Shown: positions 33,808-56,739 of the stretch, in pieces | Layout of the letters: the number at the start of each line of letters is the position of its first letter | Position numbering within the stretch: the stretch's first letter is position 1 | Program-made: the position numbers and the translations under genes | The notes under the pieces: model-generated | Told to the model about the DNA's origin: nothing | What the model saw: the letters and a program-made list of their open reading frames with translations, nothing else | Database searches by the model: none | Assembly (NCBI RefSeq): GCF_024721265.1 | Contig: NZ_JAMXOC010000004.1 | Location: forward strand, 62,001-126,000 | Direction: 5' to 3' | Source of the DNA: Ohessyouella blattaphilus | Lineage (GTDB): Bacteria > Bacillota > Clostridia > Lachnospirales > Lachnospiraceae | DNA length: 64,000 nt

Positions 33808-34956
33808 ATGCGAGGAATGGAAGTTTTACTTAGTAAACGATGGATTCTCAAGGAACAAGAACGAGATCTGTACTATCGTTTAAAGGATGAAGTGGGCAAA
33901 TATAAAAAGTTTTTCAATGAAAAACTTGGTTATCAGCTGCTCGTAAATCCTTATTTAATAAAACTGGATAAAGTCCCGGCGAGGCCGGTAGCGGCTCTTG
34001 GAATCAAAGAATTTACCGATATCCGCCACTATATTTTTCTGTGTCTTTTGTTGATGTTTTTGGAAGATAAGGAAGCCGGTGAACAGTTCGTCTTGTCAGA
34101 ACTATTGGAATTTATCCAGACAAATTATCGGCAGGAGCAAATTGATTGGACGAGTTTTAACCATCGTCGTCTTTTGATCAAAGTAATAAAAGAAGCTCAG
34201 TCCTATGGATTAGTTAAGGTTGATGATGGCTCTCAAGAATCGTTCATCACCGATTATAATCAGGAGGTTCTTTATGAAAATCTAGGGACATCTCGTTATT
34301 TTATGCGAAATTTCAGTCGAGATATCCAAGATCTAGATAGACCAGAAGATTTTTATTCCAGTGAATGGATCGGAATGGATGAAGATCGTGGTGCGGTTCG
34401 GAGGCACCGAGTTTACCGCAAATTACTAGTGGAGCCAGGGATGTATAAAGAAAAAGGTGAGGACGAGGATTTTCTCTACCTTAAAAATCAGAGAAATTTA
34501 ATTCGTAGTGAATTAGCAGGGTATTTTGACTGTGATGTTGCCGTCCACCGCACCAGCGCTTACTTACTCTTAGGTGAAGAAAGTCGCATGGGAAGAACCT
34601 TGCCGAATCAGTCGATGGTCTCAGACGTGGTTCTTTTGTGTAATGGGGAGATAGTAAAAGCGATTGCAAAGGGAGAGCTTACAACAGATATTGAAGAAAA
34701 GGTTGAGATTAATCAGTTGACCTTTAGACGGATTATTGAAGGCTGTAAAGATAAGTACGATCAATTATTTTCTAAGACATATAGGGAGCTTACAAGTTCA
34801 CAATTCTATGAGCTTATCGAGGAGAATATGTTGCTGTGGGGAATCATCTCTATGAAGGACGATAAAATATGGATCTGGCCCATTGCAGGAAAGCTGATAG
34901 GCGAATACCCGGCACAGATAATTAAGCAGATAAATGAGGGAGATAAAGATGAATAG
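33808..34956 (+). CDS. jetB: Wadjet system protein JetB (KITE subunit, DUF4194-like)
   Basis: A 382-residue, winged-helix-rich protein in the position of JetB. KITE subunits of MukE type sit on the kleisin. The N-terminal LLSKRWILKEQERDLYYRLKDE and the middle segment FTDIRHYIFLCLLLMFLEDKEAGEQF fit this family. The start ATG immediately follows the jetA stop; a second ATG two codons on is possible. It overlaps jetC by 8 bp with the chosen jetC start. Identification rests on family resemblance and gene order. Confidence 0.82.
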   Translation: MRGMEVLLSKRWILKEQERDLYYRLKDEVGKYKKFFNEKLGYQLLVNPYLIKLDKVPARPVAALGIKEFTDIRHYIFLCLLLMFLEDKEAGEQFVLSELLEFIQTNYRQEQIDWTSFNHRRLLIKVIKEAQSYGLVKVDDGSQESFITDYNQEVLYENLGTSRYFMRNFSRDIQDLDRPEDFYSSEWIGMDEDRGAVRRHRVYRKLLVEPGMYKEKGEDEDFLYLKNQRNLIRSELAGYFDCDVAVHRTSAYLLLGEESRMGRTLPNQSMVSDVVLLCNGEIVKAIAKGELTTDIEEKVEINQLTFRRIIEGCKDKYDQLFSKTYRELTSSQFYELIEENMLLWGIISMKDDKIWIWPIAGKLIGEYPAQIIKQINEGDKDE

Positions 34957-37900
34957 TAACTGGCAGATCCACCGAATAGGGTTATTGAATTTTTGGTATT
35001 ATGATGAAGAGGAATTTTATTTTGCCGATGGCCGGATGCTTTTAAGAGGAGCAAACGGGTCCGGAAAATCTGTAACGATGCAAAGCTTTATCCCTCTTCT
35101 CTTGGACGGAAATATGCGCCCTGAGCGCTTGGATCCCTTTGGATCGAGAGCGAGGCGGATGGAGAATTATCTTTTGGAGGAAGGCGACGGCCGGGAAGAG
35201 CGCACGGGCTATCTTTACATGGAATTCAAACGCACGGACTCGGAGACGTATATAACGATTGGCATTGGTATGCGAGCTAGACGAGGAAAGTCTATGGATA
35301 CGTGGTATTTCTTTCTTCAAGACAACAGACGAATCGGGAAAGAGTTCTATCTATATCGCCAAGAAGCCCAGAAAATCCCTTTGACGCAGCGAGAACTAAA
35401 AAATCGTCTAGGTGAAGGTGGTCAGGTCGTGGAAAGTCAGAAGGAATATATGGGCCTAGTTAATAAACTGATTTTTGGCTTTGAGACGGATGACGCGTAT
35501 AAAGAGTTGGTGGATCTTTTGATTCAGCTACGAACGCCGAAGCTATCAAAGGACTTTAAACCTAGCATTATTAACGATATTTTGACAAACTCACTTATGC
35601 CATTGTCGGAAGATGATTTGCGCCCCATGTCAGAAGCGATTGAAAATATGGATAGCTTAAAGGCGAGTCTTGATGATTTAAAAGAAACGCAGCAAGCAGC
35701 GGCAAAAATAGCCAGGAGCTATCATAAATATAATCGCTTTATTGCTTTTGACAAAGCCCGTAAGTATAAGCAGTATTCCCAGAGGCTACAGCAAGGAGAA
35801 CGAGAGCTCGCGAACTTAGAAAATCTAATTGACGAAAAAAATAAGGAAAAGGACGCATATGCGAATAAAGATATGCAGCTCAGCCAAGAACTAGTGCTTC
35901 GTGAAGAAGAGCTAGCTTCCTACGGCGAAAATGATTTGGTTAAGCTAGACAAGGAGCGGCAAAGCCTTTTGACGGATCAAGAGACGATAGAAAAAGAAAT
36001 CGCCTTAAAGGAAACGACTCATAGCGGTAAGAAGGCACAGCGTCAAGAATTAGAACATCGACAGACGGAAAAACGAGGAGATGTCGAAGCTTTAGAAGAT
36101 GAGATACATAAGCTTTTAGACGAGATGAGAGATGAGCTTACGCAGGCAACCTTTGACGATTACGAATTTATGGCCAATGAGCTGCAAGAGCATCTTTCAG
36201 AAACGTATAGTTTTGCTTCTCACAGAGAACTTCTAGACCGACAAATTACAAATTTACAACTAGTGAAGGACAAACTCAAAGAGGAACTACAGCTTAGGAA
36301 AAACAGTGATTTTATTGAGTCAGAAGTAGAAAAGAAACGCAGGGAGCGAGATACGCTTGAACGCAGTGAGCGGGACCTAGAGGATCAGCTGCGAACGGTT
36401 AAAAATGAGCTATTAGAGAAAATCAACCTGTGGGAGCAAGAGGCACAGGAGATTGTTGTCCCTGAAGAGAAAATGCACACTCTTTTAACGAAGATAGAAG
36501 GCTTTACGTATGAGCAAGACTATCATGAGGTGAAGAATATAATTCAGCCTTTCTATCAGGAAGCAGAAAAGGACCTACAGCTAGAAAAGGCACATTTAAC
36601 TTTTGAAAAGGATCAAAATCGGAAGTTACTTGAGAAGACAGAGCAGGAGTTAACCTTGTGGCGTGAACGAACCGACCCCGTTCCCGAGCGAAGTCCGGAG
36701 CAAGTAGCAAGTCGCGAGCATCTTCGCCAGGCAGGCATCGCTTATCAGGAATTCTATAAGGTGTTGGACTTCCCGACAGATTTTTCTGAACAACAACGGA
36801 ACCGCTTGGAGGAAGCTTTACTGCGAATGGGTATTTTAGATGCGGTATTAATTGATACCGAGGACTTTGAGAAAGTAAAAGCCTTTGAAGGCGGTCTAAG
36901 CGATCGCTATATCTTGACGAATACTAAGAAAGCAGATAACAATCTGGAGAGCTTAGTCGAGATTGTAAACGAAGATAACGATATTTTGCTCTATCAAAAG
37001 GTCGCCAAGGCACTGGCGGCAATCGGTTACGATGACCAGGGCGAAGTAACGGTTAAAAGCGAGGGGTATTATCAGTTAGGGCCAATAACAGGAACGTTAA
37101 CGGGCGAGTATCAGGCGAGGTTTATCGGCGAAAGAGCGCGTAAGCGTTACCAGGAAGCAAAGATTGCGGAGCTTACGGTAGAGCTTGAGCAGTTAATAAA
37201 AGACAGGGAAGAGCTTGAAAGAAAAGAGATAGGGCTACAAAAGCGTATCGAGGCACTTGGACAATGTTGGGCAGAGTTTCCAAAGGGGGACGACTTACTC
37301 TTAGCCCTGCGAACTTTAGAGGATGCCAAATACGCTCTTCGCCAGGTGAAGCAAGCTTTAGATAAAGAGCAAGAACGCCTCAACGAGGTGCTTAGAAATA
37401 TTGATGGTCTTCATCTGGAAATACAAAACCTGTGCACCAAAGTATATACGGTCCCTAATTTGGAAGTGGTGTCAGAGGTTCTCGAGGAGCTTTTAAGCTA
37501 TAAGAAACTGCTACAAGAACTGGAGATTTCCCACAGTAAATATATAAGCATTTGCGAAATTGTCGCGACCATGGTTATTCAGCTAGAAAGCCTTGATGAA
37601 GACATAGATACAGTCCTAGTAGATATTAGAAATTTGGAAATCCGCCGTCAAAAGTTACGAGAGCGCCTAGAGGCGATAAGTGAACAGCTAGCAATTGGCG
37701 ATGTGGAAGAGGTCTTAAAGAAAATTGAATTGGTTAATGTTCGCCTGAAAGAGATTCCCATAGAACAGCGAGGCATAGCCAGTAAGTTAGGAACGTTAGG
37801 CCAGCAGATTACCCAAGCGATAAGTGACAAAGAAAATAGCTTGGTAGATACCTTAAGGCTTCGCAACCAAGTGAAGGTTATTGCAGATGCTCTAAAACAA

Positions 37901-39028
37901 GAACTTTTTCTAGGTTATCTGAAAGAGGATTTAGCAGGTGACATTGCGGAGGGTATGGATGATATTTCTCAAGTGGCTGAGGAAATAGTAAGAAGAGAAG
38001 GAGCGCTTTTAGAACAAGAGGAGTCAGAAAAAGTTAGCCGAAATTTACAAGAGTCGTTCTTTAATAATCGTGCAGCTCTTACAGAGTACGGTCCCTCGCT
38101 ACAAGAAATATTCTCTGAAAAAACATCTTGTGACGGTCAAGAATTTAGTTTTGCCAGAGTGGAAATTAATGTTCGCTACCGAGGGCAGCAAGTAAAGTTC
38201 CCTAGCTTTGCGAAGAGGGTAGATGAGGATATCGAAGAGAAAAAAGGACTATTGAGTGATAAGGAGAGGGAACTGTTTGAGGATATTCTCCTTGGTGTCA
38301 TCAACCGTAAAATACGTGCGAAAATATATAGCAGCGAAAGCTGGGTTAAGAATATGAATGAGCTGATGGAAAGTATGCGTACTTCTAGCGGCATTCGTCT
38401 TAGCTTGCGTTGGCGTAGCAAAAGCGCCGAGCAAGAGGGTCAGTTAGATACAAAGGAATTGGTAACCTTGCTTAAGAAGGACCAGAAATGGATGAAGGAA
38501 GAAGAATCCGAAAAGCTCTTAAGTCATTTCCGCTCAAAGATTGAAGCGGCAAGAAAAATCTTAGAAGAAAGTGGAGGTATTCGTTCCTTTCACGGAATTG
38601 TGCGCGATATTTTAGATTATCGTCAGTGGTTTGAATTTCGTCTAGAGTATGAAAAAATCGGGGAGCGAAAGAAAGAGCTGACAGACCGTGATTTCTTTAC
38701 CTTTAGTGGTGGCGAAAAAGCTATGGCGATGTATGTGCCGCTCTTCTCAGCAGTGGTGGCCAAATACGAGGCTGCTAGAGATGATGCTCCGCGACTGATT
38801 TCTCTTGATGAAGCCTTTGCTGGTGTAGATGCTACAAATATTAATGATATGTTCCGGTTAATGGTAGATTTCCGTTTTGCCTTTATTATCAATTCGCAGA
38901 TTCTCTGGGGAGACTATGAAACGGTGCCTAGTTTGGCGATTTATCAGCTATTAAGAGCAGATAATGCCAAGTTTGTCACGGTTATTCGTTATACGTGGAA
39001 CGGCAAAGAAAAAATGCTTGAGGGGTAA
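34949..39028 (+). CDS. jetC: Wadjet system protein JetC (SMC-like ATPase)
   Basis: A 1359-residue SMC/MukB-like motor. The N-terminal Walker A motif GANGSGKS is at residues 34-41, the ABC signature FSGGEKA near 1253, and Walker B LISLDEAFAGVD near 1285. Between the heads are two very long charged coiled coils (about 220-600 and 730-1150) and a hinge-like globular part near 610-740. JetC dimers extrude DNA loops and detect small circles. I start at ATG 34949 (MNSNWQIHRIG) because GAGGGAG lies at the right distance; the ATG at 34934 would overlap jetB more and adds only MREIK. The gene is intact. Confidence 0.93.
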   Translation: MNSNWQIHRIGLLNFWYYDEEEFYFADGRMLLRGANGSGKSVTMQSFIPLLLDGNMRPERLDPFGSRARRMENYLLEEGDGREERTGYLYMEFKRTDSETYITIGIGMRARRGKSMDTWYFFLQDNRRIGKEFYLYRQEAQKIPLTQRELKNRLGEGGQVVESQKEYMGLVNKLIFGFETDDAYKELVDLLIQLRTPKLSKDFKPSIINDILTNSLMPLSEDDLRPMSEAIENMDSLKASLDDLKETQQAAAKIARSYHKYNRFIAFDKARKYKQYSQRLQQGERELANLENLIDEKNKEKDAYANKDMQLSQELVLREEELASYGENDLVKLDKERQSLLTDQETIEKEIALKETTHSGKKAQRQELEHRQTEKRGDVEALEDEIHKLLDEMRDELTQATFDDYEFMANELQEHLSETYSFASHRELLDRQITNLQLVKDKLKEELQLRKNSDFIESEVEKKRRERDTLERSERDLEDQLRTVKNELLEKINLWEQEAQEIVVPEEKMHTLLTKIEGFTYEQDYHEVKNIIQPFYQEAEKDLQLEKAHLTFEKDQNRKLLEKTEQELTLWRERTDPVPERSPEQVASREHLRQAGIAYQEFYKVLDFPTDFSEQQRNRLEEALLRMGILDAVLIDTEDFEKVKAFEGGLSDRYILTNTKKADNNLESLVEIVNEDNDILLYQKVAKALAAIGYDDQGEVTVKSEGYYQLGPITGTLTGEYQARFIGERARKRYQEAKIAELTVELEQLIKDREELERKEIGLQKRIEALGQCWAEFPKGDDLLLALRTLEDAKYALRQVKQALDKEQERLNEVLRNIDGLHLEIQNLCTKVYTVPNLEVVSEVLEELLSYKKLLQELEISHSKYISICEIVATMVIQLESLDEDIDTVLVDIRNLEIRRQKLRERLEAISEQLAIGDVEEVLKKIELVNVRLKEIPIEQRGIASKLGTLGQQITQAISDKENSLVDTLRLRNQVKVIADALKQELFLGYLKEDLAGDIAEGMDDISQVAEEIVRREGALLEQEESEKVSRNLQESFFNNRAALTEYGPSLQEIFSEKTSCDGQEFSFARVEINVRYRGQQVKFPSFAKRVDEDIEEKKGLLSDKERELFEDILLGVINRKIRAKIYSSESWVKNMNELMESMRTSSGIRLSLRWRSKSAEQEGQLDTKELVTLLKKDQKWMKEEESEKLLSHFRSKIEAARKILEESGGIRSFHGIVRDILDYRQWFEFRLEYEKIGERKKELTDRDFFTFSGGEKAMAMYVPLFSAVVAKYEAARDDAPRLISLDEAFAGVDATNINDMFRLMVDFRFAFIINSQILWGDYETVPSLAIYQLLRADNAKFVTVIRYTWNGKEKMLEG

Positions 39029-39031
39029 AGT

Positions 39032-40375
39032 ATGGGTGAAGAAAGACTAGAACAGTTTGTCAGCTTTTTAAAGGCAGACCCGGGATTTGCCAGGCTTTTA
39101 GCGGCCATGCGCGAAAAATACCGAAGTTTTGGTGAGGTAAAAGGAATTTTAGTTCTAAAAAAAGCGAGTCTTGCTGAAAAAAACGCCTTAAGCGGAATGC
39201 TGGGAGTTGATTATTCAGACACAAATGAGATTCGGGTAAGTGTTAGCCGGATACTAAAAGCTCTAGAGATGACACCTTTTTCCGGAATATCCTTAGAAGA
39301 GGCTGTAACTGCCTATTTTAGTGAGGATATTCTCACGAAAAAAGAAGAACGAACCCTGGAAAAGGAATTAGAAGACGCTTTTTTTCAGGACCTCATTAAT
39401 GAGTTTTCAGGAACCATAAGTAGTAGTTGGCTGCAAAGCGCTTGGCAGCGAGAGCTAGGGGAGTGGCAGTATTTACATCGCCATTACCGAGAGGACGGGG
39501 CACGTTTAAAGAAGGCTCTGAAAATTGCCATGGAAGCTGGTAACAACTTGCCAAGCACCAAGAACGAGAAAGTACAAATCCCCTTCTTTGCCGAAAGGTA
39601 CAGCAGAGATCCTCATACGTTTGACTATGGTCATTTAGAGAGTAATATTCTTCTGTACATTATCGCCTTCTATCTGGAAACAGCGAGATTTGAAAAGGGA
39701 CGAACTTCCTTAATACGTGATTTAGAGTTATATAGTAAAGTCGGGCTAGGCCGCGATGACATTCTTAATAACACGACGGTTTATGGTCTTAGTTGTATAC
39801 AAAAGGGTGGCCACGAGCACGCGGGATGTAGAGGTTATTTGGAGGAGAAGGAACCGCAGGTATTAACCTTACGCTTAATATTGCAAACCAAAAGTATTAT
39901 CGTTCCCAGGAAACGAGTGTATGTGGTGGAAAATTCGGGGGTTTTCGCGGAGTTAGTTAATCATCTTTCTTCAAGTAATCAAGCGCTAATGTGTACAAAT
40001 GGTCAATTTACAACGGCTTCTTGGATACTATTAGAGAAGTTTATTCAGCAAGGAATTGAAGTGTTCTACGCCGGTGATTTTGACCCGGAAGGACTACAGA
40101 TTGCGGATCGTCTTCTAGAAAGATTGCCGGAAGTACATTTATGGCGGATGTCGGTAGAGGATTACCTGGCATCTGTACCGGCGGTACCTCTTGATAAAAA
40201 GCGTCTTCAGAAATTACGGGCAATTAAAAATAAAAGTCTTAAAGATGTATGCCAGGAAATGAGAAAGCGGGAGATGGCAGGTTATCAAGAGGCGTTATGG
40301 GATAGGTATGTAGAGGATTTAATGCAGCAGGGAGATCCCGAAACCGGTGATAGTCAATCAATTAATCAGTTCTGA
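39032..40375 (+). CDS. jetD: Wadjet system nuclease JetD (TOPRIM domain)
   Basis: A 447-residue nuclease that cuts the plasmid once the motor has extruded it. The N-terminal half resembles JetD/TIGR02679-type proteins (SRDPHTFDYG and ILLYIIAFYLE). The C-terminal TOPRIM domain has the acidic residues in VYVVENSGVFAEL (Glu) and AGDFDPEGLQIADRLL (Asp-x-Asp). All expected catalytic residues are present. It begins 3 bp after jetC. The four genes together form a complete, apparently functional Wadjet locus. Confidence 0.9.
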   Translation: MGEERLEQFVSFLKADPGFARLLAAMREKYRSFGEVKGILVLKKASLAEKNALSGMLGVDYSDTNEIRVSVSRILKALEMTPFSGISLEEAVTAYFSEDILTKKEERTLEKELEDAFFQDLINEFSGTISSSWLQSAWQRELGEWQYLHRHYREDGARLKKALKIAMEAGNNLPSTKNEKVQIPFFAERYSRDPHTFDYGHLESNILLYIIAFYLETARFEKGRTSLIRDLELYSKVGLGRDDILNNTTVYGLSCIQKGGHEHAGCRGYLEEKEPQVLTLRLILQTKSIIVPRKRVYVVENSGVFAELVNHLSSSNQALMCTNGQFTTASWILLEKFIQQGIEVFYAGDFDPEGLQIADRLLERLPEVHLWRMSVEDYLASVPAVPLDKKRLQKLRAIKNKSLKDVCQEMRKREMAGYQEALWDRYVEDLMQQGDPETGDSQSINQF

Positions 40376-40971: not shown

Positions 40972-41104
40972 TCTATTAAATGCAGATTGGAAACAACGAC
41001 AGCCCTATTTGGGGCTATTGATGTAACTGAGGATGTGATGGAGAAGATTATTTTCTGAAACCACAGATAAAATACAGGATAAGAGATATTTAACATGAAT
41101 AATT

Positions 41105-41142
41105 AAAAGGCACTTTTCATTAAGTTGAAAGGTGCTTTTTTT
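41105..41142 (+). terminator. terminator-like hairpin upstream of parA
   Basis: AAAAGGCACTTTTCA pairs imperfectly with TGAAAGGTGCTTTTTT, ending in seven T residues, 27 bp before the parA start. It may isolate the conjugation operon from read-through. Confidence 0.65.
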
Positions 41143-41168
41143 GTGCCTATTTGGCAGAAAGGAGAGAT

Positions 41169-41990
41169 ATGGATAACTGTAAAATTATTGCAATTGCCAA
41201 TCAAAAAGGTGGTGTTGGAAAAACCACAACAACGATAAGCTTAGGCGTTGGATTGGCTCAAAGAGGAAGAAGAGTTTTGTTGGTGGATGCGGATCCTCAA
41301 GGCGATCTCACAACAAGTTTAGGTTGTAATGATAGCGATTTAATAGATATTACGCTAGCAACCTATATGGAAGCTACCATCCGAGATATGCCAATACCGA
41401 AGGGTGGCATAGTTCATCATTATGAGGGGGTAGACGTGATTCCAGCAAATCTAGAGTTAGCAACGACAGAAATGTCACTAGTAAATGCTATGAGTCGAGA
41501 GTTCACATTGAAAAACTGCTTGGAGCCGTTAAAAGATGAATACGACTATATTTTAATTGATTGTATGCCTAGCTTGGGGATGATTACCATTAATGCTTTA
41601 GCAGCTGCAGATAGCGTGATTATTCCGGTGCAAGCTCACTATTTGCCAGCTAAGGGAATGACACAGCTCATAAGTACAATAAACAAGGTAAAGAGACAGA
41701 TTAATCCGGTATTACAGATAGATGGAGCGCTTCTAACGTTGGCTGACATGCGAACAAATCTATCAAGAGAAACGGAAACAACTCTTCGAGAGAGCTATGG
41801 GGAGCATATTCGCATTTATGACACAGTTATACCTGTGGGGATAAGTGCTGCAGAAACATCGGCGCTTGGGAAGAGTATATTTCTGCATGAACCAAATAGT
41901 AAAGTGGCAAAGGCATATGAAATATTTGTTGAGGAGGTGATGAGAGGTGGCAAAAAAAGAAATCAAACTCGAACTCCCTTCTGTCGATGA
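41169..41990 (+). CDS. parA: ParA-family partition ATPase
   Basis: A 273-residue deviant Walker ATPase (AAA_31). The signature KGGVGKTTTTISLG lies near residue 11, with DADPQGDLTTSLG near 40 and LIDCMPSLGM near 120. Together with ParB and a RepA_N-type protein it forms the replication/maintenance module of many Clostridia ICEs, segregating the excised circular form. I use ATG 41169, which has AAAGGAG just upstream; the TTG 18 bp earlier is less likely. It overlaps parB by 44 bp. Confidence 0.95.
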   Translation: MDNCKIIAIANQKGGVGKTTTTISLGVGLAQRGRRVLLVDADPQGDLTTSLGCNDSDLIDITLATYMEATIRDMPIPKGGIVHHYEGVDVIPANLELATTEMSLVNAMSREFTLKNCLEPLKDEYDYILIDCMPSLGMITINALAAADSVIIPVQAHYLPAKGMTQLISTINKVKRQINPVLQIDGALLTLADMRTNLSRETETTLRESYGEHIRIYDTVIPVGISAAETSALGKSIFLHEPNSKVAKAYEIFVEEVMRGGKKRNQTRTPFCR

Positions 41991-42879
41991 TTTGTTCACG
42001 ACTCAAGAGGAACGAGACCAAAAGACGGCGGAACAGATTCTAGAAATACCAGTAAAGGAAATCAGCGACTTTCCTAATCATCCTTTTAAGGTACGTCTAG
42101 ACAAGGAAATGCAGGACATGATAGAAAGCATAAATCAGTATGGCATACTCGTTCCTGCCATTGTTAGGGAAAAGGAGGGCGGCTCCATTGAAATGATTTC
42201 AGGACATCGGCGTAAATTCGCAGCCATAGAAGCAGGACTTTCGGTAATTCCCTGTATTAAGAAAAGTCTAACCGATGATGAAGCAATCATTATCATGGTG
42301 GATGCGAATATTCAGAGAGAGAATATTCTCCCTTCGGAAAAGGCGTTTGCGTTTAAATTGAAATTGGAGGCAATGAAGCGACAAGGCAAACGAACGGACT
42401 TAACTTCGTCTCCACTGGAGACGAAGTTAAAAAGCTCTAGATCGGATGTAGAACTGGGACGTCAAGTGGGTGAGAGTAAGGAGCAGATTCATCGCTATAT
42501 ACGTTTAACAAATCTAACCCCGGATATTCTGGATTTAGTGGATGAGGGTAGGATTGCTTTCCGCCCAGCGGTAGAGGTGTCATACTTGACAGAACAGGAG
42601 CAGTCAATCTTATATGACAACATCGTTCTTGAAGAGAAGACCCCATCTCTTTCACAAGCCGTAAAGATGAAAAACTTATCGAAAAAAGGTGAGCTGGATG
42701 ATGAAGGAATCTTTAAAATTATGATTGAAGAGAAGGGGAATCAAAAGGAACAATTTAAGATGCCCAAAGAAAAAATAGGTCGCTATTTTCCTGAAGGGAC
42801 AACTAAGGAGGTTATGCAAGATACCATCATCAAAGCCTTGGAATATTATCAAAAACGAACGAAAGAGAAAACGAGGTGA
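41947..42879 (+). CDS. parB: ParB/Spo0J-family partition protein
   Basis: A 310-residue centromere-binding CTPase-type protein. The N-terminal ParB domain has FPNHPFKVRLDKEM, YGILVPAIVREK and the nucleotide-binding ISGHRRKFAA. Next come ENILPSEKAFAFKLKLEAM and a helix-turn-helix (ESKEQIHRYIRLTNLTPDILDLVDEGRIAFRPAVEVSYL, partly). The start is GTG after GAGGAGGTG. A 31-bp palindrome lies inside the coding sequence at 42400-42430. It is cotranscribed with parA and repA. Confidence 0.95.
   Translation: MAKKEIKLELPSVDDLFTTQEERDQKTAEQILEIPVKEISDFPNHPFKVRLDKEMQDMIESINQYGILVPAIVREKEGGSIEMISGHRRKFAAIEAGLSVIPCIKKSLTDDEAIIIMVDANIQRENILPSEKAFAFKLKLEAMKRQGKRTDLTSSPLETKLKSSRSDVELGRQVGESKEQIHRYIRLTNLTPDILDLVDEGRIAFRPAVEVSYLTEQEQSILYDNIVLEEKTPSLSQAVKMKNLSKKGELDDEGIFKIMIEEKGNQKEQFKMPKEKIGRYFPEGTTKEVMQDTIIKALEYYQKRTKEKTR
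42400..42430. promoter_or_regulatory. 31-bp near-perfect palindrome inside parB
   Basis: TTAACTTCGTCTCCA (42400-42414) and TGGAGACGAAGTTAA (42416-42430) are exact complements around one central C. It encodes LTSSPLETKLK, a segment often seen as DLTSxxxGxK in ICE ParB proteins. It could be a parS-like centromere or a regulatory hairpin. Confidence 0.6.
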
Positions 42880-42885
42880 TGGGAG

Positions 42886-43809
42886 ATGGCAAATAAGATT
42901 CGTGATGCCCCGTTAGCATTTGATTATTTTTATGGGATGGAGGCCGATCAGTTCAGTTTTTTTCGAATACCCAAGTGCTTATTTACAGAGCCAGAAATGG
43001 AGAGGGTTTCAACGGAAGCAAAATTGGTTTATGGTGTGTTATTGGACCGGATGCAGTTATCCGTGCAGAATAGGTGGCTCGATAAGAACAACCGTGTTTA
43101 TATAATCTACCCTGTAGATGAATTGATGGCGATGTTAAAATTTTCTAGACAAAAGATAACGAAGTATATGGCTGAACTGGATGAAAAAACGGGAGTGGGT
43201 CTAATTGAGAAAAAGCGCCTAGGCCAAGGAAAGGCGAATATCATTTACGTAAAAAACTTCATTCCTTACGAACGTCGAAGGCAACAAGATGATGTCATGA
43301 AAAAACAGAATCTTCAGAAATTCCAATATGGAATTTCTAAAGATTCCGATACGGAACTTCTAGAAGTTCCTATATGGAACGGTAATAATACTGAATATAG
43401 TGATACTGAAAAGAATAATAATCCATCTATCAGAAATGAGCTAGCTGATGAAGAATTGATTGATCGGATGAGAAGAGTAATTCAGGAGAATATTGAATAT
43501 AATAATTTGATTGAACGCTCAGACCAGGCAAGTGTGGATGAGATTGTGGAGTTGATGCTAGAGGTTCTGTGTGATCAGGGGTCTAGAATTAAGATTGGGC
43601 AAAGAGAGTATTCTCTGGCATTGGTACAAGGGCAGATTATGAAGCTTAAATTTTCTCATGTTTTGTATGTTCTTGATTGCTTGAGGACTACAACAGCTAA
43701 AATCCATAATATAAAAAGTTATCTGCTAACCACGCTCTTTAATGCTTCGAAGACAATGAGTCATTACTATCAGCAACAAGTGAATCATGAGCTTTATGGA
43801 GAACCTTAG
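42886..43809 (+). CDS. RepA_N-type replication initiator protein
   Basis: A 307-residue protein with an N-terminal RepA_N winged-helix domain (FFRIPKCLFTEPEMERVSTEAKLVYGVLLDRM, partly; RVYIIYPVDELMAML; SRQKITKYMAELDE), a variable linker (about 135-190) and a C-terminal helical domain (TTAKIHNIKSYLLTTLFNA). RepA_N proteins initiate theta replication of Firmicute plasmids, and many ICEs carry them. In that family the origin lies inside the rep gene, and three iteron-like repeats are found in this linker. It begins 6 bp after parB with GGTGATGGGAG. Confidence 0.9.
   Translation: MANKIRDAPLAFDYFYGMEADQFSFFRIPKCLFTEPEMERVSTEAKLVYGVLLDRMQLSVQNRWLDKNNRVYIIYPVDELMAMLKFSRQKITKYMAELDEKTGVGLIEKKRLGQGKANIIYVKNFIPYERRRQQDDVMKKQNLQKFQYGISKDSDTELLEVPIWNGNNTEYSDTEKNNNPSIRNELADEELIDRMRRVIQENIEYNNLIERSDQASVDEIVELMLEVLCDQGSRIKIGQREYSLALVQGQIMKLKFSHVLYVLDCLRTTTAKIHNIKSYLLTTLFNASKTMSHYYQQQVNHELYGEP
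43321..43379 (+). repeat. three iterons at exact 23-bp spacing inside the replication gene (candidate oriV)
   Basis: TTCCAATATGGAA (43321-43333), TTCCGATACGGAA (43344-43356) and TTCCTATATGGAA (43367-43379) are 13-bp palindromes of form TTCC-N5-GGAA, starting exactly 23 bp apart. The first two 23-bp units also share their spacers (TTTCTAAAGA and CTTCTAGAAG); across units 2 and 3 there is an 18-bp perfect palindrome centred on TCTAGA (43353-43370). Confidence 0.75.
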
Positions 43810-43888
43810 CAGGAGCCAATTTTACACCTTTTACAAAAAGTAATGGGTTATGGTATACCTAAAGAAAAGGATAAAGGGGGACAGGAAT

Positions 43889-44572
43889 ATGTTGTTTGAA
43901 AAAAGGTGTTGGCGACCAGGCTTGATTTTAAAAGTGTTATTTATACTTCTGTTTTTGCTTATCTTGGGGATTCAGGCATTTTCTAAAGAGGAGATTGTGT
44001 ATACGGATGTGAAGCCGCAAATTGTTGGTGCTACAAGTGAGAAGCCGCAAGAGGGAGGTGAGCAACCAGAAGCAAAGGAAAAGAAGGCGATCACCTTCAA
44101 AGAGGTGAGTAAACAGGAGCAAAATAAAAAAGCTGATAAACAGGCCAATGTAGTAGATGCAAGTACAAAGGCGAAAGTGTCAAAGACAGCTGTGGAAGCT
44201 ACAGTTCTAGCAGCAACTCATTCAAGTGAGAAAGGGATATCAAGTGAAGCTAATCAACCAAGAAGACGATGGATTGAAGGCCAGACAAAGACTAGAGAGA
44301 TTCCAACGATTATACAAGAAGCTAGAACCGAAGTTATTCCAGCCGAGTATCGGACAGAATATTATATGGCATGTAGTGTTTGCCAGATAGAGCTTACCAA
44401 CGATACTGTTAATTCTCACACAGAAGGACATATGCTAGCAGGTGAAGGTGGTGGCAGTTATCAAACTTCGAGAAATGTACTTGTGAGAGAAGAACAAGTT
44501 GTACAACATGAAGCAGCCTGGGGAACCAAGACGGAAGAGTATGTGGTACCAGGTTATTGGGAATATTATTAG
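43889..44572 (+). CDS. secreted or membrane-anchored ICE protein with a CxxC/HxxxxH motif
   Basis: A 227-residue protein of unknown function. The start is ATG 43889 (AAAGGGGGAC upstream). A membrane helix or signal (about 12-30) is followed by a low-complexity Lys/Glu/Ala linker, then a C-terminal domain from about 145. That domain has a candidate zinc site, CSVCQIELTNDTVNSHTEGH, and a closing TEEYVVPGYWEYY. The order Cys-x2-Cys and His-x4-His resembles a zinc finger placed outside the cell. Genes of this kind occur in this position in related conjugative elements; I cannot assign a role beyond a surface function. Confidence 0.65.
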   Translation: MLFEKRCWRPGLILKVLFILLFLLILGIQAFSKEEIVYTDVKPQIVGATSEKPQEGGEQPEAKEKKAITFKEVSKQEQNKKADKQANVVDASTKAKVSKTAVEATVLAATHSSEKGISSEANQPRRRWIEGQTKTREIPTIIQEARTEVIPAEYRTEYYMACSVCQIELTNDTVNSHTEGHMLAGEGGGSYQTSRNVLVREEQVVQHEAAWGTKTEEYVVPGYWEYY

Positions 44573-44711
44573 AATTGACAGGATAGTACTATAGAGAGTG
44601 GCAAAAGGTGGTTACTACTTTTTTTAACTTAGGAATGTTATAATTAACTAACTTTGAATTTGTAAATCAGTTTAAGAAAGAAATCGTAAAAATGATAAGG
44701 GGGGAACAACC

Positions 44712-45131: not shown

Positions 45132-45230
45132 TCAATATTAAAAGCATATGACTGGCAAATTCCAGTTTGTCAGACGTATAATCGTTTAAAGATGATGAAT
45201 GTATAAGGACTATCGCGCAATAGCAACCCA

Positions 45231-45259
45231 AAAGGCAGGTAAAAATACCTGTCTTTTTT
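45231..45259 (+). terminator. terminator/attenuator upstream of the surface adhesin gene
   Basis: AAAGGCAGGTA pairs with TACCTGTCTTTT around AAAA, ending in six T residues, 24 bp before the adhesin start. It could limit read-through into the adhesin gene. Confidence 0.8.
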
Positions 45260-45282
45260 CATGCAAAAGAAAGGAAAAAAAT

Positions 45283-47622
45283 ATGAATAAAGGAAAGTTA
45301 TACCAAATTATTGCAAGTATCGTTGCAGTGATTTTTTTATGTTCGCCGATAATGATTCAAGCAAAAATGAAGAGCACTCCGATATCCAATCAGCAAAAAA
45401 CAGAGATTATGAATGAGCTAGCGGAGCGTATTGGTGAAGATAAGCATAAGGCAGAAGGTCCTAGCGAGGAAAGCCTGGAAATAAAAGATGTTCCGCGCGC
45501 CAAACGCCTATTGCGAACGGGAACAGTAAACCATGTGGTAGGCCGCACAATCTTTTATGAGAGCTGGTTTACCAATTATTTTACCGCAGGTGACCGAGTT
45601 GCCTATTGTCTGCAGCCAGCCGTAGAGACGCCGCCAACTGGTAATTATGGAATCAGTCGCTACGTTCCCAATAACAGTCGCTATGCAAAAGGACTCTATT
45701 ACTTATACGGTGGTCCGGGCTATCAGACTTGGTATCAAAACTTTGGCGCAATCGGTGCCAGTGGCGCTGGTTACAATGAGGACTCAGAATACACCATGAC
45801 CCATGTAATGATTTCCTACATTTATGATCCCGGCGGTTCCGCATTTGTAGGCTTGAGTCAAGATATTATTCAAGCGTTAGTCCATCAAGTGAGTCTACTA
45901 GACCAATTGCCAGACGCACCATGGACCTTTCAAGCATTTGTGTATAACGAAGACGGTGCCGGTCAAGTGATGGGTGGTTCCTCTTATACCCCGAACGGAA
46001 AAGTAAAGATTAAAAAGGTGTCTGCGAACCCAGAGATTACCGAAGGCAATGGCTGCTATTCTTTTGAGGGAGCAGAGTTTACGGTCTTTAAAGCGGGCAC
46101 CAATGACGTGGTGGGAACACTGGTTGCAGATGCAGAAGGGAATACAGGAGAGCTTGAAGCACTAGAGGGCGAGTATCAAATTCAAGAGACGAAAAGCCCG
46201 AAAGGATATCTCTCAAAAGTCGACCGCGTATCGGTAACTGTTACTCGGGAGAAGACCGCAACAGTAGAAATCAAAAATGTTCCGGGCAATGACCCTATAG
46301 GGATGCTGCTAGGAAAGATAGATGCAGAAACCAATAAGGATAAGCCTCAAGGAACAGCGAAACTAATAGATGGTGAGTTTACCGTTAAATACTATGATGT
46401 ACTCCTAAGCGATGCAGAAAAAGATGTAGACCCAGGAACAAAAGGATATGAGCCTAAACGCACATGGATATTTAAGACGAATGAGAACGGGTTTGCCAAT
46501 CTACACGGCGCCTATCAGATTGGTGGCGATGCTCTTTACTTGAGTAACGGTATGCCAACGGTTCCTTTTGGTACATTAACAGTACAAGAAACAAAGGCGC
46601 CGTCAGGGTATCTATTAACGGATAAAGAGGGAAAGACTCCCGGTGTTCATGTAAGAAGGATTATTCCAGATGAACACGGACAACCGGTCTATGAATATAA
46701 TGTGCCTCTGCAAGAGGACCAGGTAATCCGAGGAGATCTAAAAGGAGTAAAGGTTTCTGATGGTGACCAAAAGCGAATGGCTTACGTTCCGTTTCGAATC
46801 ACATCGGTAACCACAAAAGAAAGCCATGTAGTAGTTACCGATAAGAACGGACAATTCAGTACATCGTCCCAGTGGAATCTGCACTCAAATAATACCAATC
46901 GAGGAGAGGAGCCAACAGATGGTATCTGGTTTGGTGAACTTACCACATTAGACGATAAAAGAGGAGCGTTAATCTACGATACCTATCTAGTAGAAGAATT
47001 ACCTTGTGAGGTAAATGAAGACCGTGTATTACTTGAACCGATTGAAGTCACCATTAGTAGAGAGATGACCACCATCGATTTAGGTACCATCACCAATGAT
47101 TACAAATCTGTTCCAGCCATTGGTACGAAAGCAAAGGATAAAAAGACAGGAACTCAGGAAGCACTCGCCGAGAAAGAAATGATCTTTGAAGATGAAGTTC
47201 GCTATGAGAATCTAACGAAGGAACTTGAGTATGAGCTACGAGGCATCTTGATGGATAAAGAAACGAAGAAGCCACTTCTTATAAACGACAAAGAAGTGAC
47301 GGCGACAAAGACCTTTCAGACAAAGGAAATGAATGACACGGAAATCATGACTTTTACCTTTGACGGAAGCGCACTTGGTGGAAAAGATATTGTCGTGTTT
47401 GAAGAACTGTACCTAGACGGAAAACTAGTGGCTAGTCATGCGGACATCGAAGATAAAGATCAAACGATTCGGATTAAGGAGCCAGAAAAGCCGGCAGAAC
47501 CAGTGAACCCACCGAAGGAAGTAGTAAATACCGGAGATGGTGCCAATATTATCATTCTCTTGGCCTTTGCTCTAGTGAGTGCAATCGTAGCTATCGTTAT
47601 CTTAAAAAAGAGAAGGAAATAG
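45283..47622 (+). CDS. sortase-type surface adhesin: thioester domain, SpaA-like domains, VaFE repeat
   Basis: A 779-residue wall protein. The signal peptide ends near residue 28. The N-terminal thioester domain holds VAYCLQP with Cys109, which in this class can form an internal thioester with a later Gln. SpaA/Cna-like isopeptide domains follow (YSFEGAEFTVFK and ETKSPKGYL near 250-340; TVQETKAPSGYL near 440). A VaFE domain (about 605-730: PAIGTKAKDKKTG, VVFEELYLDG) precedes VNTGDGAN, a membrane helix and KKRRK. As in the hydrolase at 12.5 kb, the LP of LPxTG is replaced. It probably promotes cell contact during mating or host adhesion. The start is ATG 45283, with AAAGGAA. Confidence 0.9.
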   Translation: MNKGKLYQIIASIVAVIFLCSPIMIQAKMKSTPISNQQKTEIMNELAERIGEDKHKAEGPSEESLEIKDVPRAKRLLRTGTVNHVVGRTIFYESWFTNYFTAGDRVAYCLQPAVETPPTGNYGISRYVPNNSRYAKGLYYLYGGPGYQTWYQNFGAIGASGAGYNEDSEYTMTHVMISYIYDPGGSAFVGLSQDIIQALVHQVSLLDQLPDAPWTFQAFVYNEDGAGQVMGGSSYTPNGKVKIKKVSANPEITEGNGCYSFEGAEFTVFKAGTNDVVGTLVADAEGNTGELEALEGEYQIQETKSPKGYLSKVDRVSVTVTREKTATVEIKNVPGNDPIGMLLGKIDAETNKDKPQGTAKLIDGEFTVKYYDVLLSDAEKDVDPGTKGYEPKRTWIFKTNENGFANLHGAYQIGGDALYLSNGMPTVPFGTLTVQETKAPSGYLLTDKEGKTPGVHVRRIIPDEHGQPVYEYNVPLQEDQVIRGDLKGVKVSDGDQKRMAYVPFRITSVTTKESHVVVTDKNGQFSTSSQWNLHSNNTNRGEEPTDGIWFGELTTLDDKRGALIYDTYLVEELPCEVNEDRVLLEPIEVTISREMTTIDLGTITNDYKSVPAIGTKAKDKKTGTQEALAEKEMIFEDEVRYENLTKELEYELRGILMDKETKKPLLINDKEVTATKTFQTKEMNDTEIMTFTFDGSALGGKDIVVFEELYLDGKLVASHADIEDKDQTIRIKEPEKPAEPVNPPKEVVNTGDGANIIILLAFALVSAIVAIVILKKRRK

Positions 47623-48888: not shown

Positions 48889-49308
48889 ATGAAAATTGAA
48901 ATAAATCGAGACTTTGAGCAATACAAAGATGATTTCTTTCGTGGGTTAAATAAGCGAGAAACCATTAGCTTAGGGCTGCTACTGTTTTTAAACTTAGGCG
49001 GTGTCCTCAGCTGTCTATTTCTATTTGATATTCACGTTCTCTTAGGGATTTATATCATCTTGCCTCTAGATATCTTAGTGGGTCTGATTGGCTTCTTCCC
49101 GGCTAGTCGTATGGGAGTAGGGTTTATTGAGCTAGCGAAACGAAGTTGGCGCCTAAAGTTTACGCCAACGATTCACTATGCTTCAAAGGAGTTTACGAGA
49201 GAAAAGGATATTCGCTATGAAGGGCTTATCAAGCGGAAGAGAACGAAAAGATGGTCAAGAAAAGGAAGGAATCAAGGTGATAAACGAGATGGGAAAACGA
49301 ACGTTTAA
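48889..49308 (+). CDS. PrgI-family (VirB3-like) conjugation protein
   Basis: A 139-residue protein with the PrgI pattern: N-terminal EINRDFEQYKDDFFRGLNKRE and two helices (about 25-70). It is the VirB3 equivalent, a short membrane partner of the VirB4 ATPase. Its C-terminal 30 residues are Lys/Arg-rich. It overlaps the VirB4 gene, so the two are coupled. Confidence 0.92.
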   Translation: MKIEINRDFEQYKDDFFRGLNKRETISLGLLLFLNLGGVLSCLFLFDIHVLLGIYIILPLDILVGLIGFFPASRMGVGFIELAKRSWRLKFTPTIHYASKEFTREKDIRYEGLIKRKRTKRWSRKGRNQGDKRDGKTNV

Positions 49309-51823
49309 AAGTTATAAAAAGTGTAGTGTGCCAGTGTATCAGATTCGGAAGAATGCTTACCCTACAGACACAGGCTCCTACATACCGATAGAAAAGATAT
49401 CTGAAAATGGTGTGTTTCAGATAGAACCAGATAATAAAGAGGGGATGGTTTTTGATAAGATGTATCGCTTTACAGACATCAACTTTGACTTAGAAGATGA
49501 TGAAGGGAAGCGGAAAGTACTGCAGGTCTGGATGGAGATCCTTCGAGGGATGAAGGTGGCTTTTAAAGTGATGGTATCAGGGATTGAACGCCCACAGGAA
49601 ACAGTAGAGCAGGAAAGCCGGCGAGAACCGCTTCACGAGGGTCCGATTTACGTACTAACAAATGAGGCCTTAAACGAAGTGATTGGGAAAAAGAGGAAGC
49701 TAGGAAATAACCGCATCGATTACCAGTACTACCTAATTCTTTCTTGTGTAAAACAAAACATGGAAGAGGCAGTTCTCTTCTTCAATAACCTAGAGACCAG
49801 TATTGTTCCCTATTTCTATCAACTAGAAAGTGAGCTGATACCAGTTGATGGGATTAACCGCTTGCAAATCTTAAAGAGTATTTATCGGCCATTGGAAGAG
49901 GAGCGTTTTTCGCTTACATGGGAAAAATTACGAGAGGAACGAGATTACTTTAGACATATACTAGCGCCACTCACAATGGAGATTGAGAAAAAGCAGTTAC
50001 GTCTAGATGCGCGTTATGGTTGTGTACTACTTGCGAGAGAATACCCAGAATCTCTTCCCGATGGTTTCCTTACGAAGTTTGTAAAAGGGCTTAACTTTCC
50101 AGTTATCGCTACAATGGATTTTTCACCTCTTAGTAAATCCGATACAAAGGAAATGCTAAGTCGAAAGCTTATGAACATTGAAGGCAGCATCGATCGCCAA
50201 CAACAGCAGAATAATCAGCGAGGAGCATTTCTAACAGATCCTAGTTGGGATAAGCGCCAGCAAAAACAAGAGATATCGGAAGAACTGGAGAACGCCCATC
50301 TAAATGATGAGGTGTATTTTTATACCTCTCTGCTCATATATGTAGAAGGAAAGTGCCAGGAAGAGTTAGATAGCCGAGTAGAGCGAGTTAAGCAACAAGC
50401 AGCGATGGAAGATGTGGAACTAGAGTTTTTAAGAGGACAGCAAGTAGAAGCCTTTCAGACGATGCTTCCAACGGCGACAAGGCTAGTACCGGTGCTTCGC
50501 CCCATGAAGGTAAGTAGTATTACCGCCTTTTGTCCATATCACGTGGCGGAGTTAAATGATAGAAGTAGTAGTTCAGCCTTTTATGGCATAAACCAAGGGT
50601 CCAAAACGCTAATCTTCGCCAATAAGAAGAATCTTAAGAATGGGAACGGCTTTATCTATGCGCCGCCGGGGAGTGGAAAGTCTTTTTTTGTAAAATTGGA
50701 AATCGTCCAGGTACTAAATTATACCTATGATGATGTACTAATACTCGATCCGGCCAATGAGTATTTTGATATCTGCGAGTTTTACGGAGGCCAAGTAATT
50801 AACTTTAGCAATCGCACAGAAACCCATATCAATCCCTTGTGGATACCTGAAGACGTATACCTTGATGAGTCCCTACGAGAAGGTTTCATTTCAGATAAGG
50901 GAGTGTTCATGCAGCGCTTATTCCCTTATATCAAAAAGAAAACCTTAGAGGGAAACGAAGCCACCTATATCGACCGCTCGGTACGTCGCTTGTATGAGGA
51001 AGTCTTTCGTATCTTTGATGAACAGGGAATTATGGAAGAGCCAACGTTCCTAGAATACCAACGCTTTTTAGCGGAAGAGCCAAGAGAAAAGGCTGGGGAT
51101 ATCTTGGACGCCTTTGAGCTATATGTAAGTGGTTCATCCAATGTCTTTGCCCATAAAAGCAACGTAGATATCAATAGTCGAATGGTAGTCTTTGGTATTC
51201 GGGACTTAGGAGAAACGCTAAAGAAACCTTCCATGATGATTATTACCGAGTTGATGACTACAAGGCTTACTTACAATAAACGCAACCATAAGGCGACGAG
51301 GGTCTACGGGGATGAGCTACACGTAGTCTTTGATGACCCAGAGTTCGCGCTTGCCTGGGAGAAGTTATGGAAGGTAGCGAGAAAAGATGGCGGTATTACT
51401 ACTGGTATTACCCAGAACATCAGCGACTCTATTATGAGTAAGCAGGCCAAAACCATGGTTGCCAATTCGGATGTAATCGGAATCCTCTCCTTATCGAAAA
51501 CAGACCGGCAGGACTTACCGGAGATTATTGACTTAACAGATACCGAAATGCAGTATGTGGATGCTAAGCATAAAGGGATGGGTCTTATGAAATTTGGGAA
51601 TACGAAAGTCATTTTTGATGCTCGAATCGACCAAGATAATATCCTTTACTGGCTCTTTACTACAGATCCGAAGGAAAGTAGGCAAAAGCAAAAGCGCATG
51701 AAGGAACTAAAAGAGTTGATTGCTAAGAAAAAGGAAGAGGCTTGCATGCGTGATGCTAAGGAGAGGGATCAAATAGATAGAAACGGAGAAGCCAGTATCG
51801 CAAAACTACGAGAGGTGCTGTGA
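49277..51823 (+). CDS. VirB4-family conjugation ATPase (TraE/TrsE-like)
   Basis: The motor ATPase of the mating channel, 848 residues from GTG 49277 (AGGAAGG at about 49263-49269); ATG 49289 is an alternative. The N-terminal domain binds the membrane partners. The ATPase domain has Walker A PPGSGKSFF near residue 465, DPANEYFDIC, and Walker B RVYGDELHVVF near 675. The GITTGITQNISD segment is typical of this family. It overlaps the PrgI gene upstream and the hydrolase gene downstream by TGATG-type stop/start coupling. Confidence 0.95.
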   Translation: MINEMGKRTFKSYKKCSVPVYQIRKNAYPTDTGSYIPIEKISENGVFQIEPDNKEGMVFDKMYRFTDINFDLEDDEGKRKVLQVWMEILRGMKVAFKVMVSGIERPQETVEQESRREPLHEGPIYVLTNEALNEVIGKKRKLGNNRIDYQYYLILSCVKQNMEEAVLFFNNLETSIVPYFYQLESELIPVDGINRLQILKSIYRPLEEERFSLTWEKLREERDYFRHILAPLTMEIEKKQLRLDARYGCVLLAREYPESLPDGFLTKFVKGLNFPVIATMDFSPLSKSDTKEMLSRKLMNIEGSIDRQQQQNNQRGAFLTDPSWDKRQQKQEISEELENAHLNDEVYFYTSLLIYVEGKCQEELDSRVERVKQQAAMEDVELEFLRGQQVEAFQTMLPTATRLVPVLRPMKVSSITAFCPYHVAELNDRSSSSAFYGINQGSKTLIFANKKNLKNGNGFIYAPPGSGKSFFVKLEIVQVLNYTYDDVLILDPANEYFDICEFYGGQVINFSNRTETHINPLWIPEDVYLDESLREGFISDKGVFMQRLFPYIKKKTLEGNEATYIDRSVRRLYEEVFRIFDEQGIMEEPTFLEYQRFLAEEPREKAGDILDAFELYVSGSSNVFAHKSNVDINSRMVVFGIRDLGETLKKPSMMIITELMTTRLTYNKRNHKATRVYGDELHVVFDDPEFALAWEKLWKVARKDGGITTGITQNISDSIMSKQAKTMVANSDVIGILSLSKTDRQDLPEIIDLTDTEMQYVDAKHKGMGLMKFGNTKVIFDARIDQDNILYWLFTTDPKESRQKQKRMKELKELIAKKKEEACMRDAKERDQIDRNGEASIAKLREVL

Positions 51824-54058: not shown

Positions 54059-54228
54059 GCCATTTATTTGGCTAGCATGGGGGTATTAGGGGGCATCCCC
54101 CTAGCAAGATGCCTTTGTATTACATAATGCGTATCTTGTTTAAATCATAAAAACGTTCTCTCATATTGAGCGGGCATCCTCTTGGGCAAAGCGCGTAAAT
54201 TATCTGCAAGTATAAAAGGAGGCGATGT
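54059..54228. other. gene-free hairpin-rich region, candidate oriT
   Basis: Just before the relaxosome gene, this region has AGGGGGCATCCCCCT (54088-54102) and a GCTAGGCCA/TGGCTAGC pair (54053-54075). Around the core, two GCTAG-type sequences face each other (GCTAGCATGGGGG and CCCCCTAGCAAGATG), and a second imperfect palindrome lies near 54107-54139. Location and structure fit an origin of transfer; the nick site is not determined. Confidence 0.5.
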
Positions 54229-54570
54229 ATGGAGGCAAAAGTTAACCGAAAAAATAAAAGCATTACAATTAGGTTAGATGAGAGATCCTATAATCAGCTG
54301 CTTGAGAAAGCGCTTAGCTATGGTGGTCTTAGCGCATATATTCGTTTGTTGATTAGGAGGACAAATGAAGAAGTGATGAATGATTATCAGATACAATTTC
54401 GAGATTTGCGATATCAATTTTGCAAATTGAGAGTTATTTGTGAAGAGTATATGAGAACGCTGGACGTTGACAATCAGAAACATTTTAAGGTAGTATTGGT
54501 TAAGATTGAAACGTTAGAAAAAGAGTTAAAAAATATATCTAGGGGTTGCAGAGAGAAAGTTAATTTGTAA
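54229..54570 (+). CDS. MobC-like relaxosome accessory protein
   Basis: A 113-residue protein. The N-terminal ribbon-helix-helix-type strand SITIRLDERSYNQLLEKA and AYIRLLIRRTNEEV are followed by a helical region, the pattern of MobC/plasmid mobilisation proteins that help the relaxase reach the oriT. It starts with ATG after AAAGGAGGCG. The candidate oriT lies immediately upstream. Two cargo genes separate it from the relaxase, although MobC and relaxase genes are usually adjacent. Confidence 0.75.
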   Translation: MEAKVNRKNKSITIRLDERSYNQLLEKALSYGGLSAYIRLLIRRTNEEVMNDYQIQFRDLRYQFCKLRVICEEYMRTLDVDNQKHFKVVLVKIETLEKELKNISRGCREKVNL

Positions 54571-54626
54571 AGATGGATTAACTTAGAAATCAATGTGGCC
54601 TCTATTTGATTTAAAGGTGGGAGAAA

Positions 54627-56738: not shown

Positions 56739-56739
56739 T

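Follow-up and report, generated by a model that had tools for sequence, protein, structure and literature searches.

Tandem 23-bp iterons inside a RepA_N-DUF6017 gene: a candidate replication origin in a chromosomal conjugative element of Ohessyouella blattaphilus

Replication origins that lie inside the gene for their own initiator are already known from plasmids. In pSK41, the C-terminal domain (CTD) of Rep recruits the host primase DnaG. According to the text of PMC5703833, the N-terminal domain (NTD) of this protein binds four Rep boxes located midway along rep, which make up such an in-gene origin. The same text describes the hybrids pPR9 and pUSA03, which have an HTH_36 NTD; there the NTD and the origin are swapped as a cassette, and the CTD stays constant. 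RepA_N genes are found as well in chromosomal conjugative elements, often with a partition ATPase, as in the ConjTn1549 and ConjTn5252 ICEs and in TnGBS1/TnGBS2. For these, PMC4701971 proposed RepA_N replication as a means of maintaining the ICE once it has excised, and it cites work on TnGBS replication; no mention of an origin or of iterons was found, and the word "iteron" has 0 occurrences in its main text. The PLE phage satellite provides a third comparison: its RepA_N initiator belongs to an integrated element and binds semi-palindromic iterons that converge on a poly-A tract, as demonstrated by gel shift and genetics; the PLE iterons, however, lie in a noncoding region, the host is a Vibrio, and a helper phage is needed (account given in PMC7145576). 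That paper also carries the speculation that, in conjugative transposons, the RepA_N proteins have lost their part in replication. A literature search confined to open-licence papers returned no description of iterons inside the rep gene of an ICE.

The window analysed here is a 64,000-nucleotide (64-kb) stretch of one O. blattaphilus contig, called C34 below. Its rep gene lies at 42886-43809 on the forward strand. The product, 307 residues long, has a RepA_N domain at residues 24-98 (PF06970, E 1.3e-26, 92.7 bits against a cut-off of 30), a variable linker, and a DUF6017 domain at residues 188-303 (PF19481, E 1.6e-30). The N-terminal part resembles the RepA NTD structures 4pta, 4pt7, 4pql and 5kbj by sequence, and by fold with Z of 12.7-14.7; the best comparison, to 4pql, has Z 14.7 and rmsd 3.9 over 111 residues, and that to the Rep-DNA complex 5kbj has Z 13.3 and rmsd 4.6 over 112 residues. 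The gene thus encodes an initiator with the RepA_N winged-helix NTD that characterizes pSK41-type replicons. Its CTD sets it apart from that type, being DUF6017: the blastp match to a staphylococcal Rep covers the N-terminal 166 residues and nothing beyond. A model of DUF6017 (mean pLDDT 81.4) gave 0 Foldseek matches at E <=0.001 and 0 fold matches at Z >=5, an absence that proves nothing about the role of the domain.

The initial annotation had pointed out three TTCC-N5-GGAA palindromes exactly 23 bp apart in the rep linker, with related spacers between them. Both observations were reproduced. The palindromes are TTCCAATATGGAA at 43321-43333, TTCCGATACGGAA at 43344-43356 and TTCCTATATGGAA at 43367-43379, 23 bp from start to start, and they are the only such sites in the whole window, where base composition predicts 0.77. 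Among 20,000 protein-preserving recodings of rep, at least three sites arose in 4, and three sites spaced 23 bp apart in 1. With any 4-bp arm word, a gap of 3-9 and a period of 15-40 allowed, this remains the sole triple in the window, and 20 first-order Markov windows contained 0. Across the 3.25-Mb genome, the two-site pattern (at most one mismatch) occurs only in the rep genes of C34 and of a second contig, C16, and a reversed control pattern has 0 matches. The spacers are not merely related but palindromic themselves, as in GGAACTTCTAGAAGTTCC at 43353-43370, so the unit is better written AGAA-GTTCC-NNNNN-GGAAC-TTCT, repeated three times from 43316 to 43384, with 43321-43379 as the core.

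In the frame used for the whole family, the three units occupy 43316-43338, 43339-43361 and 43362-43384. Unit 1 is AGAAATTCC-AATAT-GGAATTTCT, with perfect 9-bp inverted arms; units 2 and 3 are more degenerate. Semi-palindromic iterons converging on an A/T tract, in the wording of PMC7145576, are found in unit 1, in its copies and in the family consensus. The self-repeat score of the array is 24 at period 23, over codons 143-167 of the open frame, and was reached by 0/200 permuted and 1/200 recoded versions of the gene. The array is therefore among the weaker ones of its family, having three units, two of them degenerate, and a score that 1/200 recodings equal. No exact DnaA box (TTWTNCACA or its complement) occurs at 41001-44600. 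We regard the array as very probably the Rep-binding part (Rep boxes, iterons) of an origin within the coding sequence of its initiator, of the pSK41-type RepA_N kind. The candidate in-gene origin put forward in the initial annotation draws its support from a survey of 60 related genes, from covariation of the repeats with the NTD, and from the pSK41 layout, each taken up below.

Directly 3' of the 23-bp array is a second repeat, absent from the initial annotation, that consists of two copies of a 15-bp AT-rich sequence (AATAATACTGAATAT and AGTGATACTGAAAAG, 43384-43413, with cores at 43384 and 43399). We propose that it may serve as a melting region or a second origin element. A reading of this module as a DnaA-trio was dropped by eye, as the triplets do not fit the motif. 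A TATC/ATCC-rich motif (CCATCTATC, CCTATCCTATCC, CTTATCTTATC) is seen farther 3' of the AT module, at 43419-43434 in the window and also in relatives, where it recurs in differing reading frames; it was judged by eye, without statistics.

The same genome contains a second related element, with its rep gene at C16:20735-21652 (L002, L040), whose protein is 75% identical to the Rep of the window. The C16 gene has the same TTCC and GGAA arms and an almost identical recognition helix, with different N5 spacers. Where the two proteins have the same residue, the codons are identical at 26/28 positions in codons 144-180 (43315-43425, covering the array and the AT module), against 99/190 elsewhere (55/114 before this stretch and 44/76 after it). 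The N5 spacers, meanwhile, change residues (Q/P, Y/F, D/E, T/V), and the arms are kept. Because same-residue codons are identical through the array and AT module while spacer residues change, the comparison indicates that this stretch of the two rep genes is under selection as DNA. The C34 and C16 elements are also predicted to be incompatible when both are circular, since their half-sites are identical and their recognition helices nearly so.

The family survey rests on 60 distinct genes with both RepA_N and DUF6017 (75 ORFs before identical cores were removed), being the best-scoring matches plus hand picks rather than every match; 62 of 149 genomes had a match. Repeats were scored by ungapped self-alignment at lags of 15-45, with 200 codon permutations and 200 synonymous recodings of each gene as null sets. 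Retained iterons in related rep genes were what the initial annotation had suggested looking for, and the survey bears it out. The strongest self-repeat falls in the linker in 60/60 genes, between the N- and C-terminal domains as in pSK41-type replicons. The best period is 23 bp in 45 genes, 24 in 4, and another value in 11. Scores exceed all 200 codon permutations in 51/60 and at least 198/200 synonymous recodings in 49/60; both nulls are passed by 47/60, and at least one is failed by 13/60. By comparison, among control ORFs of 250-500 residues from this genome (100 shuffles each), 0/58 pass both nulls and 2/58 have a best period of 23. Clustering the genes by NTD at a 70% identity level leaves 32 groups, of which 24/32 have period 23 and 18/32 combine 23 bp with significance on both nulls.

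A scan of viral contigs with the single window protein found no relative. The scan with a five-row alignment gave 9 loci, which were used as a partly held-out test. This viral set has 9 RepA_N ORFs in 8 loci, with a best period of 23 in 6, of 15 (the period of the AT module) in 2, and none in 1. One array, in L129, is weaker (4/200 recodings), and L127 apparently duplicates L074 of the main set, which makes 5/8 the fairer viral count for period 23.

It is also conceivable that the repeat belongs to the protein, or to chance: the linker would then be a disordered peptide repeat, and the repeat in the DNA would be its consequence. The linker at residues 134-186, the stretch encoded by the array and AT module, does have pLDDT <50 in an AlphaFold2 model of Rep built from 10 sequences (mean pLDDT 68.2), as expected for a disordered linker. 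Peptide repeats do occur in the wider group, for two further contigs of this genome, C51 and C3 (L041, L042), carry 24-bp in-frame arrays (GTCGGAAAA..CCGAC) of about seven copies each, in which the peptide VGKxRPQE repeats along with the DNA, and the 15-bp class described below keeps part of its signal after recoding. We nonetheless hold this explanation to be highly improbable. A period of 23 bp, no multiple of three, shifts the frame at each copy, so the encoded peptides differ and do not repeat; the signal is lost on synonymous recoding in 49/60 genes (<=2/200 recodings as good); and the C34 and C16 arms are kept as DNA while the spacers change residues.

Repeats might instead act in RNA, as hairpins in the rep mRNA that attenuate translation or expose a site. 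The segment 43305-43440 does fold to -32.8 kcal/mol (z -3.79), with 0/200 shuffles as good. Such hairpins are, however, a by-product of palindromic DNA sites, and neither a fixed 23-bp period nor covariation with a DNA-binding domain is expected of attenuators, which leaves a role in RNA with very little probability.

The AT-rich module is likewise conserved at the DNA level in relatives. On the 3' side of the array, 49/60 genes have its core, RRYRAKACT, against a mean of 16.9 and a maximum of 25 in 100 synonymous recodings. Two cores spaced by 12, 15 or 18 bp are present in 23/60 genes (recodings: mean 1.3, maximum 5), and the spacing is exactly 15 in 28 cases. In total, this region has 84 cores, and all N- and C-terminal domains together have 1. 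As the pattern was picked after inspection of the alignment, these counts describe the module and are no independent test of it. Codon choice points the same way in the 35/60 genes that could be anchored by a protein pattern: ACT makes up 62/70 of the Thr codons in the module versus 64/360 in the folded domains, and AAT makes up 106/114 versus 266/445 of the Asn codons, skews to which local A+T richness may contribute. The corresponding bias for Ser and Glu is weak (AGT 5/7, GAG 6/10).

Which protein reads the repeats can be approached through covariation. Over 43 arrays, the similarity of iteron profiles correlates with NTD identity (Spearman 0.41) and hardly with CTD identity (0.06). The partial correlation is 0.42 for the NTD given the CTD (0/2000 permutations as high) and -0.11 for the CTD given the NTD (1780/2000 permutations). 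Because repeat sequence covaries with the NTD only, these comparisons give strong, if indirect, support for recognition of the repeats by the winged-helix RepA_N domain that the same gene encodes. Particular recognition helices recur with particular iterons: CSKPT with GTAAA, CGTQK with GTG/CAC, CAREKC with GTTCG, and C-K/G-RDK with GTCGG. Residue by residue, only R111 rises above the 95% family-wise permutation level, and narrowly (0.326 vs 0.324); K90, M81 and S87 follow below that level, and single columns are suggestive only. Six of the top 10 specificity columns lie in residues 81-91, and two lie in the wing.

This covariation bears as well on the possibility that the array is a centromere (parS), bound by the neighbouring ParB rather than by Rep. 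Upstream of rep are genes for a parA-type partition ATPase (41151-41990, forward strand; PF13614, E 8.9e-60) and a parB-type partition protein (41947-42879, forward strand; PF02195, PF17762, and TIGR00180 above its cut-off), the latter immediately upstream, and ParA or ParB is encoded beside rep in 50/60 loci of the family. A centromere is nevertheless a very unlikely identity for the array. Its repeats covary with the NTD of Rep, pSK41 has the array yet is annotated with ParM in place of ParA/ParB, and neither ParA nor ParB is found within the stretch examined at 10/60 loci, including L005 and L014, which have clear 23-bp arrays.

Plasmids were compared by the same repeat scan. Among 13 plasmid rep genes, the period is 23 in 5, namely pSK41, its near-copies pW51A and pTZ361, p13T0028 of S. 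saccharolyticus, and a circular 517-kb Monoglobus record. In seven genes, which come from plasmids of lactobacilli, lactococci and enterococci, the scan detects no array; two of these seven were unannotated, and the longest fitting ORF was used for them. The remaining gene, an S. epidermidis rep, shows the AT-module period only, not significant against recoding. In pSK41 (NC_005024), whose in-gene origin is established by experiment, the scan recovers four copies of a 23-bp unit (GAAGTGTCAAAAGGACACGTCCA) at residues 137-165. They correspond to the Rep boxes published in the text of PMC5703833, also four in number, and have the 23-bp layout of the window array. The likeness to pSK41 and the RepA_N staphylococcal plasmids, as far as that source describes them, extends to the RepA_N domain, the mid-rep origin, the 23-bp semi-palindromic repeats centred on an A-tract, and AT-rich NDT-coding repeats after the array. 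Differences lie in the number of boxes, three here and four in pSK41, and in the letters of the half-sites.

A distant blastn search of the window rep against 72,556 plasmids gave only 2 matches, both to S. epidermidis RepA_N plasmids. The match is confined to 43302-43409, the array and AT module, at 72%, and the plasmid sequence there has GAAGTTCGAAAATCGAATTTCAA four times followed by TAGTGATACTGAGTT repeats. Since nothing but the array and AT module matches, the origin has kept its DNA sequence better than the remainder of rep has. In the circular Monoglobus record, an initiator resembling RepA_N-DUF6017 (NZ_OY725736.1:147015-147998, L114) carries its 23-bp array and adjoins parB, a hint that the RepA_N-DUF6017 type can serve a free replicon.

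Another set of 23 genes has DUF6017 without a RepA_N match (L024, L028, L093-L112 and others). HTH_36 (PF13730) was identified in 9 of the 10 that were scanned, 8 of them above the cut-off, and in one more sequence. The best repeat in this set is 15 bp in 17/23 and 30 bp in 3/23; the 15-bp class has CC-N6-GG units in the same linker, followed by AT-rich DNA. Both nulls are passed by 16/23, and the peptides repeat as well. The sequences suggest that a DNA-binding domain and its origin are exchanged as a cassette on DUF6017. The swap resembles the pPR9 hybrid in the description given by PMC5703833; the gene in the window differs from the pPR9/pUSA03 type in having RepA_N and not HTH_36.

The surroundings of rep in the window differ from those in plasmids of the pSK41 type, as the element is chromosomal, has a CD1110/CD1115-type conjugation module, and encodes ParA/ParB. 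The left side of the window consists of chromosomal housekeeping genes including guaA, and in G001, another genome of the same genus, the right flank is conserved from about 65.77 kb onward; the element is therefore integrated in the chromosome. Genes 3' of rep, all on the forward strand where coordinates are given, encode PrgI, a VirB4-like conjugation ATPase of the CD1110 family (49178-51823; NF045971, 582 bits vs a cut-off of 325), a MobA/VirD2-like relaxase (57894-59192; PF03432, E 8.4e-28) and a VirD4-like coupling protein of the CD1115 family (60332-62596; NF045973, 395 bits vs a cut-off of 250). The term ICE in the initial annotation is apt in so far as a relaxase, a VirB4 and a coupling protein are encoded in a chromosome, as in Tn1549-like ICEs. 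It goes too far as to excision and integration, for no recombinase of the element's own was found: searches for PF00239 and PF00589 gave 0 matches on C34 from 30 to 72 kb (window coordinates) and 0 on C16, in a genome-wide profile search. A search with PF06782 was uninformative, as its controls gave no match either. The longest exact direct repeat joining the two flanks is 13 bp, taken as chance and not as an att-like repeat. For an empty site, one further genome of the genus, G001, was compared; it confirmed the right flank and not the left. Because the element has no PF00239 or PF00589 recombinase, we call it a conjugative element with an ICE-type module and do not claim a full ICE. It may be stranded, may depend on a recombinase encoded outside it, or may have a left end that escaped recognition.

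The missing recombinase is also a point in favour of an array that binds Rep without any role in replication, as an operator or as a site at which Rep helps transfer or represses its own operon. We consider such a role improbable. The array lies deep in the rep coding sequence, about 430 bp past the start codon, which is odd for an operator; the 15-bp AT module is kept with it, in a two-part layout common to replicating plasmids; and the partition operon adjoins rep in most loci of the family, as counted above.

If the array is part of an origin, its working can be sketched as follows. By sequence comparison, the rep linkers are seen to carry tandem 23-bp semi-palindromic repeats with an A/T-rich centre and then 15-bp AT-rich repeats, both kept as DNA and not as protein. 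The RepA_N winged helix of the same gene would, as the covariation strongly supports, bind the 23-bp units. By analogy with pSK41, Rep multimers would load on neighbouring units and bend the array at the central A/T tract. The AT-rich 15-bp repeats would open, and DUF6017 may recruit a host helicase or the primase/replisome. Firing would be a matter of the circular form, present after excision or in a recipient, with the origin silent or restrained in the integrated state; ParA and ParB would segregate the circular element after replication.

On balance we favour a broader reading, in which the RepA_N-DUF6017 genes of conjugative elements in Lachnospiraceae are complete replicons written in coding DNA. 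Each would hold a near-decodable iteron code read by its own recognition helix, a 15-bp AT-rich module, and a constant DUF6017; NTD and array would swap as a cassette, with HTH_36 going with 15-bp repeats; and the elements would be episomes that are at times chromosomal, not transposons with a leftover rep, so that sequence would allow their mutual incompatibility to be predicted. Three points go beyond the published descriptions found: the extent, the second module and the link between domain and iteron. The advance over known in-gene origins is one of extent and detail, and it bears on whether conjugative elements have RepA_N proteins that still act in replication. If an origin coevolving with the DNA-binding domain is retained in these rep genes, the elements are replicons, and their copy number, stability, spread and incompatibility have to be rethought. 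The comparison also predicts which short DNA fragment binds which Rep.

Several other genes in and near the element were observed. Directly left of the parAB-rep module, at 32320-40375, is a complete type II Wadjet (anti-plasmid) system, with JetA at 32320, JetB at 33808, JetC at 34934 and JetD at 39032; it could be either cargo of the element or chromosomal. Among the conjugation genes, at 54147-57893, an AAA_13 protein gene is followed by one for a Schlafen AlbA_2 protein. The C16 element has no DNA that matches this pair, which may be cargo or serve in defence. Between rep and the conjugation genes, at 45199-47622, a large surface protein is encoded that combines thioester (TED_2), SpaA and TQ ester-bond domains and is possibly a mating adhesin.
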